A DNA stretch of 64,000 nt from NCBI RefSeq assembly GCF_028368935.1, contig NZ_JAQNDK010000004.1:1364001-1428000 (forward strand), in the 5' to 3' direction. Each line of letters starts with the position of its first letter. The stretch's first letter is position 1. This document shows, one piece after another, positions 3,777 to 12,649 of this stretch. The notes beneath the pieces are model-generated. The model ran no database searches. It had not been told where the DNA came from and was given only the letters and a program-made list of their open reading frames with translations. The position numbers and the translations under genes were made by a program. The DNA is from Sorangium aterium. Its GTDB lineage: Bacteria; Myxococcota_A; Polyangia; Polyangiales; Polyangiaceae.

Positions 3777-4334
3777 ATGTCCGTTTCCAAGCAGGCCGAC
3801 ATAGCTCCGACCTTGCGACCGCCGCCCGCGTTACCGGCGGACGGCATGGTCATTTCCGCGAACTTCTCGGTCGGTGGCTTCAGTAAACGGTGGAACCACT
3901 GTCATCAGCTAGCCAATTTCCTCGCGAGGTACGCGAGCGCCAATGAGGATGACCCCGAGCGCCACGCGACCTTGCTATCGACGTTCTTCAACGAATTGCT
4001 GGAAGCGATATACCGGAATCACGGCGCCACCGGCGAGATCAAGATGCGGTTCCGCAAGAAGCAGAACCACATCCTCGTCGAGGCGGAGGTCCCGATCAAC
4101 GAGCAGAGCGCCAAGTTCTACAACCATGCTGTCCAGCTGGCCAATCAGCCGGACCCGATGGCCTGGTATCGAGAGCAGCTAGAGCACGACGTTCCGGATG
4201 ATGACGCTCAGGCGCTCGGGCTGCTCGAACTCGCGGTCGTCTACGGCTCGAAGCTCAGTATCTCCGAACCCACGAGCGGGGACTGGCTCCTCCTGGCGAT
4301 TCAGTTCCCGTTCACTGAGGTAGAAGAACTATGA
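3777..4334 (+). CDS. GHKL-like ATPase/kinase of a partner-switching system
   Basis: A 185-residue cytosolic protein. The ATG at 3777 follows a CCGAGG ribosome site at a good distance; a TTG one codon earlier is less likely. The family resembles the cyanobacterial and proteobacterial SpoIIAB-like regulators (SiaB/DUF6272-type). The region around FFNELLEAIYRNHG aligns with the N-box NELxxNAxKH of GHKL ATPases, keeping Asn-Glu-Leu but losing the usual His/Lys pattern. A clear G2 box (GxGLGL) is absent, so catalytic activity is uncertain. It is the first gene of an eight-gene same-strand run, and its stop overlaps the next start by ATGA. Its expected role is to bind or phosphorylate a STAS-domain partner encoded in the same run. 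Confidence 0.7.
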   Translation: MSVSKQADIAPTLRPPPALPADGMVISANFSVGGFSKRWNHCHQLANFLARYASANEDDPERHATLLSTFFNELLEAIYRNHGATGEIKMRFRKKQNHILVEAEVPINEQSAKFYNHAVQLANQPDPMAWYREQLEHDVPDDDAQALGLLELAVVYGSKLSISEPTSGDWLLLAIQFPFTEVEEL

Positions 4335-5569
4335 CAGCTCCGATCGGTCGCGAATCCGCCGTACCGCCCTCGTCTGCGAGCGGGCTCCCTTCGTGGCGCT
4401 CGCAGGTGACCTTCAGCATGCGCGTCGACCAGACCGACCAGGAGGTTGCGCTCTCGGGCATGCTGCGGCCGTTCGGTGCCGATCAGATGAGGGCCATCCG
4501 CGGCACGCTGGAGACCGCGGCCAAGAACGCGAGCGGCGAGCTCTGCCTGGACTTCAAGCGGCTCAAGTACATGAACAACGTGGCATTCCTGGAGATCAAC
4601 AGGTTTGTCCGTTGGGCCGTCGAGGCTCGTCCCAACCTCAAGATCAGGCTGATCATCTCCAGCGTCATCCCCTGGGCGATCCGCAAGTTTCAGGTCATCG
4701 CGGAGATCTACTCGAGCGTCTCCGTCGAGATCTACGACGTCGCGTTCTACCCGAGCCAGGGAATGCTCGAAGATGCCGAGTTCATCGACGTCCTCCGCCT
4801 CCAGGAGCGCATCATCTGGGAGCACGAGAAGACGGGGCTGACGAACCACGGCCTCTACCCGGGGATGAAGATCGCCGACATCGCGTGCGGCTTCGGCGAC
4901 TTCGCGATCTTGCTCCAGAAGGAGTTCAAGCCAGAGCACGTCACCGGGGTCGATCACTCCCGGCCCGCGCTCCGGTACGCGCAGGACCACATACGGCGGC
5001 TCGGGCTGGAGAACGTCGAGTACCAGTACGGGGACGCCGCGGCGCTGCTCCTGCCGGACAACTCGTTCGACTTCGTGTCTTGCCGTCTGTCTCTCCAGGT
5101 CTTCCCGCAGCCCGAGCGCATCATGCAGGAGCTCTACCGCATCTGCAAGCCGGGCGGCCGGATCTACATCACGAACGAGCTCCTGTCGTGCGCGTACGGC
5201 TATCCGGAGCAGGACCTCATCCGCGCGACCTACAAGAGGTTCGTCGAGCTCGGCAGGTCGATCGGGATGGATCTCGATACGGGGATAAAGACGCGGCAGA
5301 TCCTGGGGGAGGCCGGCCTCGAGGACATCCGCGTCAACCTGATCGACATCAACAACATGAACACGGACTGCTTCGACTTCGCGCGCGTCGTCGAGTGCTG
5401 GATCTCCGTGACCGCCAACATGGCCCGGACCGCCGGCGCCCCGCCGGACTACCACGCCGAGCTGAGCACCGGGCTGCGCGCTCACATGGCGGCCATCACG
5501 CACCCGCACGGCCTCGCCTCGTGGCCGATCTATGCCGGCTCCGGCCGCAAGCCGATGCGGGTCATGTGA
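4331..5569 (+). CDS. STAS domain fused to a class I SAM-dependent methyltransferase
   Basis: 412 residues. Residues about 18-140 form a STAS (anti-sigma antagonist-like) domain with the expected order: LCLDFKRLKYMNNVAFLEI followed by amphipathic helices. The position normally occupied by the phosphorylatable Ser/Thr (consensus DSSG) reads Met-Asn-Asn-Val at 81-84, so it may not be phosphorylated. Residues about 160-330 form a Rossmann methyltransferase: motif I KIADIACGFGDFAILL near 178-193, an acidic residue after strand 2 (GVDHS), and an LLPDNSFDFVSCRLSL motif. The C-terminal 80 residues are unassigned. Coupled to the preceding gene by ATGA. The substrate is unknown; the N-terminal STAS suggests that partner binding controls methylation or targeting. 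Some databases label such proteins UbiE-like, which I would not rely on. Confidence 0.82.
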   Translation: MTAPIGRESAVPPSSASGLPSWRSQVTFSMRVDQTDQEVALSGMLRPFGADQMRAIRGTLETAAKNASGELCLDFKRLKYMNNVAFLEINRFVRWAVEARPNLKIRLIISSVIPWAIRKFQVIAEIYSSVSVEIYDVAFYPSQGMLEDAEFIDVLRLQERIIWEHEKTGLTNHGLYPGMKIADIACGFGDFAILLQKEFKPEHVTGVDHSRPALRYAQDHIRRLGLENVEYQYGDAAALLLPDNSFDFVSCRLSLQVFPQPERIMQELYRICKPGGRIYITNELLSCAYGYPEQDLIRATYKRFVELGRSIGMDLDTGIKTRQILGEAGLEDIRVNLIDINNMNTDCFDFARVVECWISVTANMARTAGAPPDYHAELSTGLRAHMAAITHPHGLASWPIYAGSGRKPMRVM

Positions 5570-5651
5570 GGGGAGGCTGGGTCATCATGCTCCGCCGCGT
5601 CGTGATGCCGATCGAGCGGCCCAGGGCCGTGCCGTTAGGAGATTGCCAGCC

Positions 5652-8036
5652 GTGAGCGTCCAACCTCGGAACCCTGGCGAACAGCGGCCTCAGAGCCTGC
5701 TCTTCAGGTTCAGGAAGTTCAGCACCAAGATCATCTTCGTGACGGGCGTCAGCGTCCTGCTCGGTGCCGTGTGGAACGTCGTCGTCGGGCGGCAAGGCAT
5801 CCACCGGCTGAGCAGCGAGGCCGCCGCGGAGATCGAGGCAGGCCTCAACTCGGCGAACCGCGAGTACCTCACCAATCACCTGGAGGACAAGGCCACTCAC
5901 GTCAACCTCAGGCTCGGCGAGGCGTACAGGGATCTCCAGACGCTCGCCGGCATCCTGCAGACCGTGATCGATCGCGAGGAGGAAATCGCCCCGTTCCTGC
6001 GGACGGCCGCCGACTTCCCGTATTTCCGCGATCAGATGAAGTACAACCCGAAGGGGAACTGGTACCAGAACGATCCGCGCGAGCCGAGCGTCGTCAGCGT
6101 CTGGGGCTACCTGGGGAAGGACGGGACGATCCGGCCCGAGGTCCAGCGGGCCGTCGACGAGACGGCGTTTCTGGATCTGATCCTGCCCGCGTTCGGCAAG
6201 TACGGCGCCGACAAGCTTCAGATCTATTACATCGGCCCCGAGGACAAGCCGTATGTGCGGCTGACGCCGTACACGGACATGGCGTCGACCTTCGACAGGC
6301 TGTATCCGGGGCACAACGACCAGGGGTGGTACAAGTTCTTCTTCCCCGGCATCGCCGAGAGCTGGAACGAGTGGGCGAAGGACCCCGCCGGGCTGGATGC
6401 GCACCCGGATCAGACCACGGTCACGGCGCCGTACGACGACGCGGCGGGCGGCGGCATCGTGATGACGGCGTTCCACCCGCTCTGGGCGAAGGACCGCAAG
6501 ACGTTCGTTGGGTCCGTCGGCCTCGACCTGACGCTCGCGCAGCTCATCGCGTCGATCAAGGACGTCAAGCTGGCCACCGCGGGCTTCGCCTTCCTGGCGC
6601 AGGCGGACGGGAACGTCTTCGCGGTCAACGAGCTCGGCGCCAAGACGCTGCGGCTGCGCACGGACGCGGGCGCCGGCCAGAACTCCGGCGTCGGCATGCT
6701 GCAGCGGTTCTTCAAGGACAGCGAGGACGCGGGGGTGTCTGGCATCGTCCTCCCGAACGATGATAAGGTCGACTACCGGGAGATGGTGATATCGGGCGAG
6801 ACGTACATCATCGCCCTCCAGCGGCTCGCGCCGGTGAACGGCTGGGCCGGGCCGGACGCGCGCATCGCCAAGGAGCGGTGGACGATGGGCTTCGTCGTCC
6901 CGAAGAAGGAGATGTACGCCTCGCTCCTCGCGGCGCAGAAGAGCATCGAGAAGAGCAGGACGGTGATCGTCGGGACCCAGGTCCTCATCACGATCGCCTC
7001 GTTCCTCGTGCTCATGCTGGGCGTCTACCTGATCTCCCGCAAGATGACGGGCGCGCTGGTCGCGCTCTCGACCGGCGCGACGCGGATGCGCGAGGGCGAT
7101 TACGGCGTTCGCATCGACGTGAACTCCGCGGACGAGATCGGGCAGCTCGGCGTCGCGTTCAACGAGATGGCGAGCGAGATCGAGGCCTACACGAACAACC
7201 TCGAAGAGCTCGTCGGCGAGCGGACGAGGGCCCTCGAGAAGGCGAACGAGGAGATCAGCGAGCTGAACGCGAAGCTCGCCCAGGAGAACATCCGGCTCGG
7301 CGCCGAGCTCAACGTCGCGCGTCAGCTCCAGCTCATGGTGCTCCCGGCGCCGAGCGAGCTCCAGGAGATCCCGGGCCTCGACATCGCGGGCTACATGGCC
7401 CCTGCGGACGAGGTCGGCGGGGACTACTACGACGTGCTCCGGAGCGACGGGCTCGTCAAGATCGGCATCGGCGACGTCACCGGCCACGGGCTGGAGAGCG
7501 GCGTGCTGATGCTCATGGTCCAGACGGCCGTCCGGACGCTGCTCGCGGCCAACGAGCGGGATCCGAAGAAGTTCCTGAGCATCGTCAACAAGGTCATCTA
7601 CCAGAACATCCAGCGCATCCGGTCAGACAAGAACCTGTCCCTGACCCTGCTCGACTACAGCGACGGCGAGCTCCAGCTCACCGGTCAGCACGAGGACCTG
7701 ATCATCGTCCGGAAGGACGGGACCCTCGATCGTGTCGAGACCATGGGGCTCGGGTTGCCGATAGGCATCGACCTGGATATCAGCGATTTCATCGGTAGCA
7801 TCGAGGTGAAGCTGGAGCCCGGGGACGTCGTGACGCTCTTCAGCGACGGGATCACCGAGGCGGAGGACTCTGCAGAGGAGCAGTACGGAATCGACCGTCT
7901 GTGTCAGGTGATCTCGAGAAACCACGAAAGAACCTCGCGGGAGATCAAGGACGCTATCATCGAGGACGTCTTGGCGCACGTAGGCTACAACAAAATCCAT
8001 GATGACATCACTGTACTTGTCATTAAGAGGGTATGA
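5652..8036 (+). CDS. membrane sensor PP2C phosphatase (Cache-like/HAMP/SpoIIE)
   Basis: The GTG at 5652 is preceded by TTAGGAG and gives a sensible N-terminus of about 25 residues before the first membrane helix; the open frame further upstream has no support. 794 residues: membrane helix 27-45; a periplasmic sensor region 46-435 of double-Cache character; membrane helix about 436-462; HAMP about 463-515; a coiled coil; and a SpoIIE/PPM phosphatase from about 574 to the end. The phosphatase retains its metal-binding motifs GGDYYD, GDVTGHG, LFSDGITEA and HDDITVLVI. This is the RsbU/IcfG/SiaA type: it senses an external ligand and dephosphorylates STAS proteins. It lies mid-array, 82 bases after the STAS-methyltransferase gene. 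A complete sensor phosphatase is therefore likely. Confidence 0.9.
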   Translation: MSVQPRNPGEQRPQSLLFRFRKFSTKIIFVTGVSVLLGAVWNVVVGRQGIHRLSSEAAAEIEAGLNSANREYLTNHLEDKATHVNLRLGEAYRDLQTLAGILQTVIDREEEIAPFLRTAADFPYFRDQMKYNPKGNWYQNDPREPSVVSVWGYLGKDGTIRPEVQRAVDETAFLDLILPAFGKYGADKLQIYYIGPEDKPYVRLTPYTDMASTFDRLYPGHNDQGWYKFFFPGIAESWNEWAKDPAGLDAHPDQTTVTAPYDDAAGGGIVMTAFHPLWAKDRKTFVGSVGLDLTLAQLIASIKDVKLATAGFAFLAQADGNVFAVNELGAKTLRLRTDAGAGQNSGVGMLQRFFKDSEDAGVSGIVLPNDDKVDYREMVISGETYIIALQRLAPVNGWAGPDARIAKERWTMGFVVPKKEMYASLLAAQKSIEKSRTVIVGTQVLITIASFLVLMLGVYLISRKMTGALVALSTGATRMREGDYGVRIDVNSADEIGQLGVAFNEMASEIEAYTNNLEELVGERTRALEKANEEISELNAKLAQENIRLGAELNVARQLQLMVLPAPSELQEIPGLDIAGYMAPADEVGGDYYDVLRSDGLVKIGIGDVTGHGLESGVLMLMVQTAVRTLLAANERDPKKFLSIVNKVIYQNIQRIRSDKNLSLTLLDYSDGELQLTGQHEDLIIVRKDGTLDRVETMGLGLPIGIDLDISDFIGSIEVKLEPGDVVTLFSDGITEAEDSAEEQYGIDRLCQVISRNHERTSREIKDAIIEDVLAHVGYNKIHDDITVLVIKRV

Positions 8037-8060
8037 GCAAGGGGGAGACTGGGCATTACC

Positions 8061-8978
8061 ATGAGCGAAATCATCGGCGTCTACTCTTTAGACGATTCGT
8101 TCAGCGAACACATGTCGCTGACGTTGTACCCCGACTCGTTCGCGGTGAGATGGAGCCTTTGTAACCTGACGGCCAACTTCATGGCCGAGTACTTCGGCGA
8201 GCTCTTTCCGGAGATAGACGGCGAGGACAGGCTCATCAGCCGAGACGAGGTCTCAGGCGCCATCGGGTACGTTCTGAACGAACTGGTTGAGAACGCCGTC
8301 AAGTTCAATCAGCACGGTGACATCACCGTGACCGTGGGTATCGGGCGTGAGGACCTGGTGTGCCTCGTCAGCAACCAGATCACGAACGCCGCCGTCCCCT
8401 CGCTCCGTGAGAAGCTCCTCGAGCTCACGCAGGAGGACCCTGGGGAGCTCCTGCGTCGGCAGGCGGAGGCGAACGCCGAAGACGCGGAGAACGCCGGGTC
8501 GGGGCTCGGGTATCTCATCATCATGAATGATTACGGTGTGAGTCTTGGGTGGAAGCTGGACCCGATCTCGGTCAACAGCTTCAGCATCAAGACCATGGCC
8601 AGGATTCCTATTTTGAATGAAAGGTCGAGAATGGAAATCAAAGGTGGTAACTATCGGGTTTGGTACGATCCCTCTGAGGTGGTGGTGTACCTGGAAGGCA
8701 TCCTTCGTCTTGGCGGCACCACCGAGTACGCCCCCATCGAGGAGCTGCTCGACAAGGTCCTGGCCACGAACCCTCCCACCATCACACTCGACGTAAGGGC
8801 GCTGAACTTCCTGAACAGCTCGGGGATCAACGTCCTCTACAAGTTCGCGATCGCCACCAGGAAGAAGGGCGAACTCCAGCTCATCGTCCGTGGGTCGAAG
8901 TCCATCCCGTGGCAGGGGAAGTCGCTGCCCAACCTCAAGAAGTTCAATCAGAACTTCGAGATGATACTCTGTGATTGA
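8061..8978 (+). CDS. GHKL ATPase-STAS fusion regulator
   Basis: 305 residues, ATG preceded by AAGGGGGAG. The N-terminal half (about 20-185) is a SpoIIAB-like ATPase with an intact N-box NELVENAVKF at 73-82 and a G2-type box GSGLGYLI near 146-153, so nucleotide binding is likely. The C-terminal part (about 193-305) is STAS-like: a GILRLGG strand, then LDVRALNFLNSSGINVLYKF with Ser253-Ser254 at the phosphoacceptor site. Normally the anti-sigma kinase and its antagonist substrate are separate proteins; here both are in one chain. The order resembles an end-to-end fusion of the two small cyanobacterial regulators usually found side by side. It could autophosphorylate or act as a phosphorylation-gated hub. 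It sits between the two phosphatase genes. Confidence 0.82.
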   Translation: MSEIIGVYSLDDSFSEHMSLTLYPDSFAVRWSLCNLTANFMAEYFGELFPEIDGEDRLISRDEVSGAIGYVLNELVENAVKFNQHGDITVTVGIGREDLVCLVSNQITNAAVPSLREKLLELTQEDPGELLRRQAEANAEDAENAGSGLGYLIIMNDYGVSLGWKLDPISVNSFSIKTMARIPILNERSRMEIKGGNYRVWYDPSEVVVYLEGILRLGGTTEYAPIEELLDKVLATNPPTITLDVRALNFLNSSGINVLYKFAIATRKKGELQLIVRGSKSIPWQGKSLPNLKKFNQNFEMILCD

Positions 8979-8984
8979 GATCGG

Positions 8985-10016
8985 ATGGGTTCTTCCGTCC
9001 AACCCGAATCGCGTCCAGGTCGAGCCATGACTGCACCCAAGGACATCAGCTCGATGCACTCCAGAGGCTTCCTGCAGAAGCAGAGCAATCTGGATGCCAT
9101 CAGGGCGATCGTGAAGGAGCGGCAAGCGTGGAACACGTTGCTCCGCGAGGAAGGGAACTTCACAGACTTCATGGAGCGCTGCAGTGCGCTGCTGGAGTAC
9201 GTCGACAAGCTGAAGCTCGACTTCGACGATCTCTCGCTGGTGCACGAGGCGATCCTGGAGCACGCGACCAGCATCGAGAACGAGCTCGAAGGGTACAACC
9301 GGGCCATCGACGACGACCTCGCGGTGGCGCGGCAGGTCCAGCGCGCCCTGCTTCCGGAGGCGAGCGGGGCCATCGCCTCGTCGTTCGACATGGCGATCTT
9401 CCACAAGCAGCTCGCCCAGGTCGGAGGAGACTACTACGACTTCTTCTACCTCCCCGGCGAGCGCCACGCGATAGGTGTTTACGATATCTCAGGTCACGGA
9501 GTATCGTCGGCGCTCATCATGGCGTTTCTGAAGGCGCAGTTCGCCCACGCTACCAAGCGGCTCGATAGCCCGGGGGCGATCGTGGACTGGGTGAACCGGA
9601 GCGCTTACTCGTTCCTCCGGGAGGTTCGCCGGTACGCGACGGTGAACTTCGTCATGTTTACTGACCGATTCCTCCGCTACGTCTCGGGCGGAGGGTACGG
9701 GCTCCTGGTCCGTCGCGGTACGCCTCGCTCGTTCAACCGGGTGAGCAACTTCATCGGTCTGCGCATCAAGCCATTTCATGAGTTCGAGCTGCCGTTCGAG
9801 GAGGATGACGTCCTCGCCTTGTACACAGACGGGATGTTCGAGGCGCAGGACGCGAGCGGGGAGATATATTCCGTGCAACGTCTCAACGAAATCGTCGTCA
9901 AGCACAGCGAGGAACCGGTGCAGGTGATCCTCGACCGGTGCATCGAGGACTACACGCGGTTCCGGGTCGCGGACGCGGACGACATCACACTGATCATCCT
10001 GCGAAGGTGCGCCTGA
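8985..10016 (+). CDS. soluble SpoIIE-type PP2C phosphatase
   Basis: 343 residues from ATG 8985; a second ATG at 9027 is equally possible because neither has a strong ribosome site. There is no signal or membrane segment. The N-terminal 110 residues are helical and probably coiled-coil. The PPM/SpoIIE phosphatase follows with VGGDYYDF (about 146-153), VYDISGHG (about 165-172), LYTDGMFEA and ADDITLIIL, covering the metal-coordinating acidic residues. It should dephosphorylate one or more STAS proteins of the array, complementing the membrane phosphatase two genes upstream. The stop overlaps the next start as TGATG. Confidence 0.88.
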   Translation: MGSSVQPESRPGRAMTAPKDISSMHSRGFLQKQSNLDAIRAIVKERQAWNTLLREEGNFTDFMERCSALLEYVDKLKLDFDDLSLVHEAILEHATSIENELEGYNRAIDDDLAVARQVQRALLPEASGAIASSFDMAIFHKQLAQVGGDYYDFFYLPGERHAIGVYDISGHGVSSALIMAFLKAQFAHATKRLDSPGAIVDWVNRSAYSFLREVRRYATVNFVMFTDRFLRYVSGGGYGLLVRRGTPRSFNRVSNFIGLRIKPFHEFELPFEEDDVLALYTDGMFEAQDASGEIYSVQRLNEIVVKHSEEPVQVILDRCIEDYTRFRVADADDITLIILRRCA

Positions 10017-10507
10017 TGAAGCCCGAGAAGAATCATTCGCAGACGTCGGTCGGTGCATCGATATATATCTCTCCGATCGATCACATCACGGGCGACGTGG
10101 CCGGCCTGCTTGCGAACTTTTTGGACGCACTTCTGGTGAGGTTCTATCCCAGACGGATCTGCCAGAAGGTCAACGTGGTGGTCACGGAGCTGGTCACCAA
10201 CGTGCTCCAGCACGGGACCGAGCGTGAGAGCGAGGTGCGGCTCGATCTGAGCATCGATCCCGATCGATTGCTCATCAAGGTATCCAACCGCGTTACGCCG
10301 GAAGAGTACCGGACCGTCAAGGCGGTATTCGACGAGATCTTCGCCGCGGAGGACCCGAGAGAGCTCTTTGCCAGGACGGTGCGCGAGAGGCGCAACGATC
10401 GACGCAGGGGCGGTCTAGGGCTCATTCGGTTGACCGCCGAGAACAAATTCCATCTCTCGACGCAGTACGTCGATGGAATCCTCGTCGTCCAGGCTACTTT
10501 CCCTTGA
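10016..10507 (+). CDS. RsbW/SpoIIAB-like anti-sigma-type serine kinase
   Basis: The ATG at 10016 overlaps the preceding stop, which fixes the start. 163 residues. GHKL ATPase motifs are intact: VVTELVTNVLQHG (Glu58 and Asn62 expected for Mg-ATP) and RRGGLGLIRL near 129-138. It is a cytosolic HATPase_c_2-type protein. By family it would phosphorylate a STAS partner, and in other systems it would sequester a sigma factor. No sigma factor is encoded nearby, so the sequestered partner may be another output protein. The next gene, a STAS-like protein, is the obvious substrate candidate. Confidence 0.85.
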   Translation: MKPEKNHSQTSVGASIYISPIDHITGDVAGLLANFLDALLVRFYPRRICQKVNVVVTELVTNVLQHGTERESEVRLDLSIDPDRLLIKVSNRVTPEEYRTVKAVFDEIFAAEDPRELFARTVRERRNDRRRGGLGLIRLTAENKFHLSTQYVDGILVVQATFP

Positions 10508-10541
10508 AAAGGCTGCGTATGTTTTCCACGAAAGGTCGCGT

Positions 10542-10952
10542 ATGAAGGCTCTCAGCTATGGAGAAATCACGGATGGCGGGCTGAGCGTCTTTCAGTCGGT
10601 CGCCCGGCTCGATGACGACAACCGCCTCGTCTTGACCTTCGAGGGCGCTATCCGGATCGACAACCCGTACCGGTACCTGTCGAGCTACCTGGACGAGCTC
10701 GCCCGAGTCCTCCCGCAGCACCCGATCACGTCCACGGTGATGGATTTCGTGAAGATGCGGTTCTGCAACTCGAACGGCTTCTACGTCATCATGGATATCG
10801 TGGACGCCGTGTACAACCTGGTGCCCGGCCGGGTGACCGTGCGGCGGATCCTCGACGATGACTGGCAGCACGAGACGCTGCCCATCCTGCTGAACCTGAA
10901 CGAGGAGCACGTGGCCGCGCGGACGACGTTCGAGGACGTCAAGGAGACCTAA
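10542..10952 (+). CDS. STAS-like regulator, probable kinase substrate
   Basis: 136 residues from ATG 10542, preceded by GAAAGG; the open frame extends upstream but would overlap the kinase gene. The fold pattern is STAS-like: LVLTFEGAIRIDNPYRYLSSYL, then STVMDFVKMRFCNSNGFYVI, in which Cys75-Asn76-Ser77-Asn78-Gly79 occupies the phosphoacceptor loop and Ser77 is the candidate phosphosite. It matches the small regulators found next to SpoIIAB-like kinases in cyanobacterial and proteobacterial partner-switching loci. It directly follows the RsbW-like kinase gene, as expected for a kinase-antagonist pair. Confidence 0.7.
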   Translation: MKALSYGEITDGGLSVFQSVARLDDDNRLVLTFEGAIRIDNPYRYLSSYLDELARVLPQHPITSTVMDFVKMRFCNSNGFYVIMDIVDAVYNLVPGRVTVRRILDDDWQHETLPILLNLNEEHVAARTTFEDVKET

Positions 10953-10986
10953 GCGTGGGGGTGTGGGCTGGGTAGGGCTGCCGGCG

Positions 10987-12357
10987 ATGGACACACCTTC
11001 GAACGAAGCGGACGTAGAGAGGTTCTTCGCTGTCTGTCCCGATCCGCTGTGTGTTCTGCGGAGCGATGGATCGTTCCTGCGTGTGAGCGGCGCCTGGGAG
11101 CGGACGCTCGGCCTGGGGACGGAGGATCTCGTCGGCCAGAGCCTCCTCGATCTCGTGCACCAGGACGACGTCGTCGCGACCAGGGAGCAGATGGATCGGC
11201 TCCGGCAGGGGCCCGTCACGCTCGGGCTGGAGAACCGGTGCAGGAGCAGGAGCGGCCTCTACGTCTGGCTGTCGTGGTCGATGCTCTCGGTACCGAGCGA
11301 GGGGCTCGTGTACGGCTGGGCGCGCAACGTGGGCAAGCAGAAGCGCCTCGAGCGGGCGCTGATGCAGCGGATCGAGACCAAGATGCTGGTCGCGTCGATC
11401 TCGGCCCATTTCATCAACGTGAAGCTTTCGGACGTCGACCGAGGCTTCCACTCGGCGCTCGCGGAGCTCGGCAAGGCGCTGCGCGCCGACAGGACGAGCC
11501 TCTTCCTCCTCGCGGAGGACGGGCGGCGGTTCCTGAACACGCACGAGTGGTGCGCCGAGGGGGTGCCGTCGCTGCGCGCGGAGCGGGGGGTCGTCTCCAG
11601 GGACGTGTATCCGTGGCTCGTCGAGCGGCTGTTCCGCCTTGAGGTGTGCGACGTGCCGCGCGTGGCCGATCTACCGGATGAGGCAGCGAGCGAGCGGCGG
11701 GCCTTCACGGAGCTCGGGATCGCCTCGCTCGTCCGGATGCCTGCAGCGTACGCCGGGCGGCTCGTGGGGGTCGTGGGGCTCGACGCGGTGCGATCCACCC
11801 GCGCGTGGGACAAGAGCGTCCGGGCGCTGCTCCAGGTCATCGGCGAGATGTTCGCGATCACGCTGGAGCGCATGCGCGCCGAGGAGTCGCTGCGCGCCGT
11901 GGTCGAGCAGCAGGAGTCGATGCGCGCGGTGATCTCGCGGCAGGAGTCCGCGATCGAGACGCTGTCGACGCCGATCATCCAGGTCTGGGACAGCGTGCTC
12001 GTGCTGCCGCTCGTCGGCAGCATCGATCGTCACCGGGCGACCGAGATCACGGAGAAGCTGCTGCACACGATCGTCGAGACGAAGTCGCGTTATGCGATCG
12101 TCGAGGTGACGGGGGTCGAAGAGGTCGACTCCACGACGGCGCAGCACCTCATCAGCATGCTGCAGACGATCGAGCTGCTCGGAGCGCAAGGGGTCGTGGC
12201 CGGGGTCCAGCCGCAGGTGGCGCAGACGGCCTCGTCGCTCGGGGTCGAGCTCTCGTCCGTCCAGGTGCATCGGGACCTCCAGGAGGCGCTGAGGTGGTGC
12301 ATCCGGGAGCTCCGGGCAGACCGGGGGACAGGGAAGCGGCGGCAGGGACGGCGGTAG
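10987..12357 (+). CDS. PAS-GAF-STAS signalling protein (RsbR-like)
   Basis: 456 residues from ATG 10987; a GTG eight codons upstream is an alternative. Residues about 5-125 are a PAS domain (FFAVCPDPLCVLRSDGSFL opening and GWARNVGKQK ending). Residues about 140-300 are a GAF domain. A short coiled coil follows, then a C-terminal STAS domain (about 335-450) with VEVTGVEEVDSTTAQHLISM, where Thr383/Thr384 match the phosphorylated Thr of RsbR. This is the sensor-scaffold architecture of RsbR/stressosome proteins, but RsbS and RsbT are not encoded here. It ends the array and could feed an intracellular signal into it. Confidence 0.85.
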   Translation: MDTPSNEADVERFFAVCPDPLCVLRSDGSFLRVSGAWERTLGLGTEDLVGQSLLDLVHQDDVVATREQMDRLRQGPVTLGLENRCRSRSGLYVWLSWSMLSVPSEGLVYGWARNVGKQKRLERALMQRIETKMLVASISAHFINVKLSDVDRGFHSALAELGKALRADRTSLFLLAEDGRRFLNTHEWCAEGVPSLRAERGVVSRDVYPWLVERLFRLEVCDVPRVADLPDEAASERRAFTELGIASLVRMPAAYAGRLVGVVGLDAVRSTRAWDKSVRALLQVIGEMFAITLERMRAEESLRAVVEQQESMRAVISRQESAIETLSTPIIQVWDSVLVLPLVGSIDRHRATEITEKLLHTIVETKSRYAIVEVTGVEEVDSTTAQHLISMLQTIELLGAQGVVAGVQPQVAQTASSLGVELSSVQVHRDLQEALRWCIRELRADRGTGKRRQGRR

Positions 12358-12386
12358 CTCCCGCTTCGCGCCGCGTTCTCCCCCCC

Positions 12387-12504
<118 letters not shown>

Positions 12505-12649
12505 ACGACGACGACCCCGTGAACGTTCACGACGACGTGAACGTTCAGGTTGGTGACCGGGGGTCTGCGGTGGGGCAGCGCTCGCTCGGTCGGGGGGCGC
12601 GGGAGCTTGACGCAAACCCGGGGAGCGAATATTTCGTACACGAAGCATC

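Follow-up and report, generated by a model that had tools for sequence, protein, structure and literature searches.

What does a partner-switching gene array control when no sigma factor lies near it? This question is raised by a locus of Sorangium aterium (contig NZ_JAQNDK010000004.1, positions 1,364,001 to 1,428,000), a stretch of 64,000 nucleotides that is termed the window here. Partner switching is known above all for sigma factor control, and to our knowledge few other targets are known. At positions 3777-12357 of the window, eight genes on the + strand, g1 to g8, comprise three kinase/STAS pairs (g1/g2, the fused g4 and g6/g7), two PP2C phosphatases (g3 and g5) and a PAS-GAF-STAS protein (g8). 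An original prediction, made from the DNA letters, had described eight same-strand genes with this order of domains, which would form a partner-switching network that is branched, takes in an external and an internal signal and has no sigma factor among its genes. All eight genes were found, their frames were refined, and the network reading is supported; the interpretation as a whole stands in part.

The answer proposed here, to which a probability of about one half is given, is that the locus represents a sigma-free partner-switching operon that acts on enzymes and has two output branches. Enzymes would probably be switched directly, rather than genes by way of a sigma factor. Judged by gene order, the array is an enlarged Sorangium form of a widespread five-gene core plus additions. 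Judged by its residues, one of the three kinase/STAS pairs, the one that bears a methyltransferase, is without catalytic residues.

A five-gene core in fixed order

The core consists, on one strand and in this order, of g1 (GHKL), g2 (a STAS-methyltransferase), g3 (HAMP-PP2C), a GHKL kinase termed K and a STAS protein termed S. It is complete in 83 of 88 loci; K and S are fused in 12 of these, as in g4, and are separate genes in the other 71. The loci were chosen by way of the STAS-methyltransferase, so g2 is present by selection; the company of the other four genes is not. Relatives of the STAS-methyltransferase were found by tblastn on 270 stretches, of which the best 80 were used (the remaining 190 may include plain methyltransferases), and 8 of 18 further stretches that were fetched were added. 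The ten left out are eight from assemblies already among the 80, L031 (same genome, other stretch) and L030 (a weak unrelated match, G023). Three of the five incomplete loci (L044, L100 and L026) end at contig edges, g1 of L029 was found by profile only, and the fifth, L065, is taken up below.

The best 80 stretches come from Sorangium, Polyangium, Nannocystis, many rhizobia, Roseibium, gammaproteobacterial metagenome-assembled genomes and one verrucomicrobial metagenome-assembled genome. Of the 88 loci, 59 are alphaproteobacterial, 24 myxococcal and 4 gammaproteobacterial, and one is the verrucomicrobial record, in which misbinning is possible. The loci are not independent, and two assemblies supply two loci each (L052/L070 and L064/L102).

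All eight genes occur in the same order in 5/5 Sorangium congeners. Genes g1 to g7 without g8 are found in the genome of locus L019 and in four genomes of a genus labelled g15. Loci of other families (L024, L025 and L027-L029) have g1-g2-g3-K-S only, with K and S as separate genes. The g5-g7 additions have been seen in three genera of the family, namely Sorangium, Polyangium and a third; g8 has no match beside the array in L019 or in the Polyangium-type loci and is seen only in Sorangium. Conserved gene order, which had been named as a check of the original prediction, is borne out by the 83 loci and the five congeners, and this recurrence rules out a chance run of paralogues. The array is not a singular set of eight equal genes.

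Within the phylum, STAS-methyltransferases are present in 11/377 genomes. A STAS domain as in g2 is found in 9 of 97 relatives: the source genome, all five congeners, two other genera of the family and one weak match. Outside the phylum, matches that cover at least 80% of the protein lie on 120 plasmid records, all from Rhizobiales genera, and the operon is present in Rhizobium johnstonii 3841 (L097). The operon is thus widespread yet hidden by annotation, and it has tractable carriers such as the latter strain. Two of the plasmid records (L142:6465-6983 and L143:6495-7010) annotate the g1 homologue as 'ubiquinone biosynthesis methyltransferase UbiE' and the STAS gene as 'hypothetical protein'; the UbiE name was perhaps carried over from the neighbouring gene.

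An intact pair and a degenerate pair

The two halves of g4 are the only members of the NCBIfam superfamilies slr1658 and slr1659 in the array. The K half scores 151.1 bits against NF047703 (slr1658) and the S half 140.8 bits against NF047705 (slr1659), both with a cut-off of 100; g1 and g6 fall below the first cut-off, and g7 and the N-terminal part of g2 below the second. K retains the N-box Glu and Asn in 86/86 sequences and an S-G-[LI]-G motif in 86/86, and S retains the acceptor Ser of its NSSG motif in 86/86. By this conservation K and S are predicted to be a kinase and antagonist pair of the Rsb/SpoIIA kind. An AlphaFold2 model of g4 (mean predicted local distance difference test score, pLDDT, 85; predicted template modelling score, pTM, 0.82) matches RsbV/RsbW, SpoIIAB and UsfX/RsfB chains. 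The K half resembles SpoIIAB, UsfX and SiaB, and the S half resembles RsbV, RsfB and SiaC; with VIA-align the Z scores are 14.3 for 8ih8_C of the UsfX/RsfB complex, 13.9 for SiaB and 11.5 for SiaC. These matches to SiaB/SiaC and to kinase/antagonist chains support a partner-switching reading. As a pointer to contact between K and S in the natural fusion, the modelled pTM is only suggestive.

The g1/g2 pair is related to K and S and differs at the decisive residues. Aligned as profiles with hhalign, g1 matches K with a probability of 98 (E 2.4e-13) and the g2 STAS domain matches S with 97.9 (E 5.8e-13); against the slr1658 superfamily g1 reaches E 8e-19 and 67.7 bits. The N-box Glu of g1 is present in 85/85 homologues and the ATP-site Asn in 0/85, the position being filled by Val (34), Leu (16), Thr (15), Ala (9), Tyr (5), Ile (4), Met (1) or Phe (1). 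In the STAS domain of g2 the acceptor position (n = 88) is occupied by Asn in 61, Met in 13, His in 7 and Ser in 1. From what is known of SpoIIAB and SpoIIAA, loss of this Asn or Ser is taken to mean loss of phosphorylation. The prediction of a GHKL ATPase holds for g1 as regards homology; because the ATP-site Asn is lost, an active kinase was discarded as a candidate, and g1 is probably inactive as a kinase. Likewise, the predicted STAS-methyltransferase fusion is present in g2, with a STAS half that has no acceptor Ser. The methyltransferase half is intact: it scores 79 bits against Methyltransf_25 (cut-off 27), its glycine motif is preserved, with G187 and G189 of the S-adenosylmethionine (SAM) site in 88/88 sequences, and the AlphaFold2 model of g2 has a pLDDT of 86.8 and a pTM of 0.81.

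In trees drawn from 26 loci and the window, g1 forms one clade apart from K and g6 (58 sequences, support 0.998), and the g2 STAS domain forms one clade apart from S and g7 (59 sequences, support 1.0). Such clades would be expected of a dead pair that represents one old lineage. The pair represents a natural experiment, that is, partner switching in which one pair can no longer be phosphorylated.

The remaining proteins carry recognizable domains. In g3, SpoIIE (E 3e-38) and HAMP (E 4e-12) are both clear, in line with the predicted membrane PP2C; the predicted Cache domain falls short of the threshold (dCache_1, 15.4 bits with a cut-off of 45, E 0.014), and the Cache-like region sits, as judged by eye, between two hydrophobic segments. 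g6 scores 30.8 bits against HATPase_c_2 (cut-off 27.4) and has the N-box Glu and Asn and a GGLG motif in 6/6 aligned sequences, the window's own among them. g7 matches the slr1659 model at E 2e-4, under the cut-off, and its NSNG motif is likewise found in 6/6 aligned sequences, again with that of the window. The PAS-GAF-STAS composition predicted for g8 proved correct, as PAS_3, GAF and STAS each score above the Pfam cut-off; its STAS half scores 87.5 bits against the YtvA family, for which the cut-off is 250. At E <= 0.01 the 13.47 Mb genome yields four matches to the slr1658 family, three of them inside the array. The fourth lies elsewhere (L031, C4:370721-370987, 39 bits).

No linked sigma factor

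The window contains no sigma70_r2 match at E <= 0.001, as the original prediction had said of the array. With 150 of 185 candidates scored, the nearest match on the contig is ~152 kb away, and the source genome has at least 109 such matches. A sigma factor beside homologous loci would speak for a variant of a known system; none was detected in the 1.30 Mb of flanks of the 88 loci with a region-2 model built from 30 source-genome sequences. The held-out controls, all from the source genome, were recovered in 8/15 and 13/15 cases (21/30), and because of this divergent (proteobacterial) sigma genes could be missed. On these results, with a moderately sensitive model, a sigma factor just outside the array was rejected.

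The array might instead end in a sigma factor encoded elsewhere in the genome and held by g6 or K, with the methyltransferase as a side branch. Many sigma factors are available for such a role, g6 weakly matches the RsbW (E 0.0055) and SpoIIAB (E 0.016) models, and partner-switch genes are scattered in Sorangium: 76 STAS matches were found in the source genome, and 71 COG1366 proteins are reported for Sorangium in PMC2887360. This arrangement is nevertheless unlikely, given the distance to the nearest sigma gene, the flanks in which none was detected and the recurrence of the core without g6 and g7 in the 71 loci with split K and S.

Some neighbouring enzymes share a motif

If not a sigma factor, what might S act on? 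Within 2.5 kb of the core, the 88 loci have a GGDEF-EAL gene (40 loci, all Rhizobiales), an extra PP2C gene (26, of which 12 are g5), a class III nucleotide cyclase gene (11) or none of these (11). The tally omits the GGDEF-EAL gene of L098, which overlaps a g1 start placed too early, and includes that of L064, which is 1.1 kb off on the other strand; the neighbour domains of examples were confirmed by Pfam. g5 adjoins the core in 12/12 loci with fused K and S.

The PP2Cs and cyclases have unlike catalytic domains and share a stretch before them, E-H-x-x-x-[IVM]-E, which is probably helical, as judged by composition. E29, H30 and E35 are invariant in 12 aligned PP2Cs and cyclases. By simple pattern the motif is found in 16/17 divergent PP2Cs (the 17th by profile), 10/11 cyclases and 12/12 g5 proteins. 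A model built from 16 of the PP2Cs, run against 6335 open reading frames of the 88 loci at E <= 1, retrieves the 17 PP2Cs, 11 cyclases and 12 g5 proteins only. Of the 23 cyclase and g5 retrievals, 15 are at E <= 0.0015 and 8 at 0.015-0.41. In the whole 13.47 Mb source genome there is a single match at E <= 0.01, that of g5 (E value in Table 1), which rules out a generic coiled coil.

Among Myxococcota the motif occurs in 10/11 genomes with a STAS-methyltransferase versus 2/366 others; the two scans of 377 genomes are taken as one set from their shared labels, and they scored at most 4 (STAS-methyltransferase) or 16 (motif) candidates per genome. Motif copies outside the model-building set, which carry the most weight, are those of G283, G243, G325, G160 and G425 and the second copy of G426. 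In G283, G425 and G426 (the latter two Roseibium), the motif is in Pfam-confirmed cyclases on contigs other than that of the core.

Two of these genomes, G243 and G325, have no STAS-methyltransferase. Here a motif-bearing cyclase lies beside a PP2C-K-S module, and no g1 or g2 was seen in the stretch. The module domains were confirmed by Pfam, with STAS proteins just under the Pfam cut-offs. Motif-bearing cyclases next to modules free of g1 and g2 suggest that the partner of the helix is K or S and not the dead pair. In G243 a stand-alone methyltransferase-like gene (L164:10010-10855) lies between the module and the cyclase, with 32% identity over 112 residues to the g2 methyltransferase.

A non-sigma output, possibly the methyltransferase, had been predicted. 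The methyltransferase does belong to the conserved operon; it is not the sole output, because G243 and G325 have PP2C-K-S and a cyclase in its absence and because the neighbours of the core are second-messenger enzymes or a phosphatase. Candidates for further outputs are thus, from the gene neighbourhoods, second-messenger enzymes and a phosphatase relay. Apparently one loop serves a methyltransferase in addition to nucleotide cyclases, phosphatases or GGDEF-EAL proteins, depending on the lineage.

A proposed switch and its alternatives

The array may be divided, on present sequence evidence, into a live loop of g3, K and S, a dead pair of g1 and g2, a helix-bearing phosphatase g5 and a second live pair of g6 and g7. 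The sequences give this anatomy alone, and every binding step that follows is inferred from it. K would phosphorylate S, and g3, on sensing its ligand, would dephosphorylate S. Free S would then compete with the STAS-like domain of g2 for the pseudo-kinase g1, whereby the methyltransferase would be released or de-repressed; g1 would thus be the anti-factor, and g2 would stand in the place that the sigma factor has in Rsb.

In the second branch, free S would bind the helix of g5 and activate that phosphatase, as SiaC does with the stalk of SiaD. The helical stalk of the SiaD cyclase is described as having two conserved motifs to which unphosphorylated SiaC binds by residues that surround its phosphosite, and phosphorylation as preventing this (PMC8457831). 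Activated g5 would dephosphorylate g7, the putative substrate of kinase g6, to give a two-storey relay. Such a relay from g3 to S, g5 and g7 would explain the presence of two phosphatases. In lineages where the helix is on nucleotide cyclases, the same S signal would raise the cyclic nucleotide, and in Sorangium g8 would add a cytoplasmic PAS-GAF input. The fuller version, in which the pseudo-kinase sequesters the pseudo-STAS-methyltransferase, a phosphorylatable STAS protein frees it and also, by way of a docking helix of its own, activates cyclases or phosphatases, and the second storey works free of phosphorylation, is put forward tentatively, at somewhat under even odds. If true, it would be a conserved switch by which one extracellular signal leads, without any sigma factor, to a pulse of second messenger and to a methylation event.

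Several observations weigh against this sigma-free scheme. L065 has no g1 next to g2, and a g1-like fragment of 74 residues lies ~10 kb upstream at the locus edge. L019 has the sole STAS-methyltransferase with an acceptor Ser. The neighbouring cyclase of L084 is without the motif pattern, no motif match was found in G318, a genome with the core that is 65% complete, and three rhizobial genomes with a GGDEF-EAL neighbour that were checked have no motif. The co-occurrence of motif and core is a partly circular test, because the model was built from neighbours of the core, and absences in the genome scans are soft, because few candidates were scored per genome. The choice of S over K as the putative partner of the helix is made by analogy; RsbT, which acts on the RsbU linker, is a GHKL protein.

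A different role for the methyltransferase is suggested by rates of change in the genus. The window was compared with the five congeners, in nonsynonymous (dN) and synonymous (dS) substitutions per site. The g4 protein is identical, with a nominal dN of 0-0.003 and a dS of 0.21-0.40, and g5 to g7 are almost identical. The g2 methyltransferase has a dN of 0.20-0.31 (dS 0.51-0.75), the g3 sensor region a dN of 0.27-0.62 (dS 0.61-0.78), and g8 is intermediate (dN 0.05-0.10, dS 0.21-0.32). The input (the g3 sensor) and the methyltransferase are variable, against a signalling core that is nearly frozen. Recombination or sensor swapping may account for the lower dS in the 3′ part of the array. Identity in the g3 sensor (5652-6970) goes down to 38%, versus 100% for the adjoining kinase-STAS protein (region compared, 8061-10952).

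As the methyltransferase and the sensor are the fastest-evolving parts, the methyltransferase might be an adaptation device that methylates the sensor phosphatase or the helix glutamates, two of which are invariant, and so resets the loop. A precedent is RsbM, which is described as methylating the signalling helix of RsbK in a partner-switching pathway of Bacillus cereus (PMC4574943). This role is improbable: the structures nearest to the g2 methyltransferase are 3mgg and LahSB, and the matches also include phosphoethanolamine N-methyltransferases, so that small-molecule enzymes and enzymes of ribosomally synthesized and post-translationally modified peptides are among the best, and the three rhizobial genomes noted above have the methyltransferase and no helix motif.

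A constitutive, stressosome-like structural complex of g1 and g2 that recruits K and S without switching would fit two proteins that are both without catalytic residues, yet kept together, and stressosome STAS proteins are not phosphorylated in every state; it is very unlikely, as the SAM motif intact in every g2 would be odd for such a role and the families listed for g1 and g2 (for g2, the best 25 of 62) include no RsbR or RsbS model.

Comparison with known systems

The sigma-free operon proposed here is closest in outline to SiaABCD of Pseudomonas aeruginosa, which has a sensor PP2C (SiaA), a GHKL kinase (SiaB), a STAS-like phosphoprotein (SiaC) and an output other than a sigma factor. The match of g3 to the SiaA model covers the HAMP-PP2C part, and the g4 model matches the SiaB and SiaC structures. 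However, scores remain under the family cut-offs: 118.1 versus 700 for SiaA (g3), 19.6 versus 85 for SiaB (g4) and 12 versus 24.5 for SiaC (g7). The array also differs in its added pseudo-kinase and STAS-methyltransferase, in that class III cyclases or PP2Cs bear the motif, and in that none of the eight proteins has a GGDEF domain, i.e., there is no SiaD.

With Rsb and SpoIIA the array shares a kinase, a STAS antagonist and a PP2C, and folds that match SpoIIAB, RsbV/RsbW and UsfX/RsfB. It differs in that no linked sigma factor was detected and in that the kinase and anti-factor roles appear split, K having the one and g1 the other. The operon is thus regarded as a form of partner switching apart from Sia and from the sigma switches, whose defining features it shows only in part. 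The array presumably also resembles the IcfG cluster of Synechocystis (slr1852-slr1861). Core K and S belong to the superfamilies of Slr1658 and Slr1659 of Synechocystis (NF047703 and NF047705), for which no mechanism was found in the literature search. What is known of Slr1658 comes from an iron-recovery mutant (Zer 2018, cited in PMC7555055).

Helical elements that precede a catalytic domain have precedents. RsbT is described as switching the RsbU phosphatase through a helical linker before the catalytic domain, and such input modules as interchanged between PP2Cs, histidine kinases and GGDEF cyclases (PMC12143880). The stretch in the array is apparently a distinct conserved motif, and it is shared with class III cyclases. 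RsbM and RsbK of B. cereus are alike in that a methyltransferase takes part in a partner-switching pathway; RsbM is described as a separate component, unlike the g2 methyltransferase, which is fused to STAS (PMC4574943). As to the stressosome RsbRST, the families listed for the array proteins include neither an RsbS nor an RsbT model, with the limit for g2 given above. No paper on the operon or its parts was found in the literature search, most subscription journals being outside its coverage.

Layout of the array

The positions of the genes are given in Table 1. Overlaps amount to 4 bases between g1 and g2 and 1 base between g5 and g6. The GTG start of g3 was picked by eye from an AGGAG upstream, and the family searches used 5655. 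For g7 the open reading frame opens at 10473, and the two aligned relatives, those of L020 and L022, begin at the position that corresponds to an ATG at 10542.

Table 1. Genes and proposed elements of the Sorangium aterium array (window positions)
Feature	Position	Strand	Description
g1	3777..4334	+	Pseudo-GHKL, kinase homologue without the ATP-site Asn (Ala77 instead); N-box Glu73 retained
g2	4331..5569	+	Degenerate STAS (residues 1 to ~150, Asn83 at the acceptor position) fused to class I SAM methyltransferase
g3	5652..8036	+	Sensor phosphatase: Cache-like region, HAMP, SpoIIE-type PP2C
g4 N-half (K)	8061..8630	+	Intact GHKL kinase, slr1658 superfamily
g4 C-half (S)	8631..8978	+	STAS with acceptor Ser (NSSG), slr1659 superfamily
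g5	8985..10016	+	Soluble PP2C, shared helix motif precedes the catalytic part; SpoIIE E 5e-28
Proposed docking helix of g5	9174..9359	+	E-H-x-x-x-[IVM]-E; genome match E 7e-25
g6	10016..10507	+	Second GHKL kinase, RsbW-like, ATP-site residues intact
g7	probably 10542..10952	+	Second STAS-like protein, NSNG acceptor motif
g8	10987..12357	+	PAS-GAF-STAS; open reading frame opens at 10963

Upstream of the array, the translation of a gene at 84-1532 has, as judged by eye, a SpoVR-type look. Downstream, between g8 and the next gene, CGTGGT/ACCACG units at 12387-12547 form a 48-nt inverted repeat that is 92% complementary. The RNA of 12385-12560 has a predicted fold of -114 kcal/mol (z -10.6), and the repeat run is possibly a strong terminator or a repeat element.

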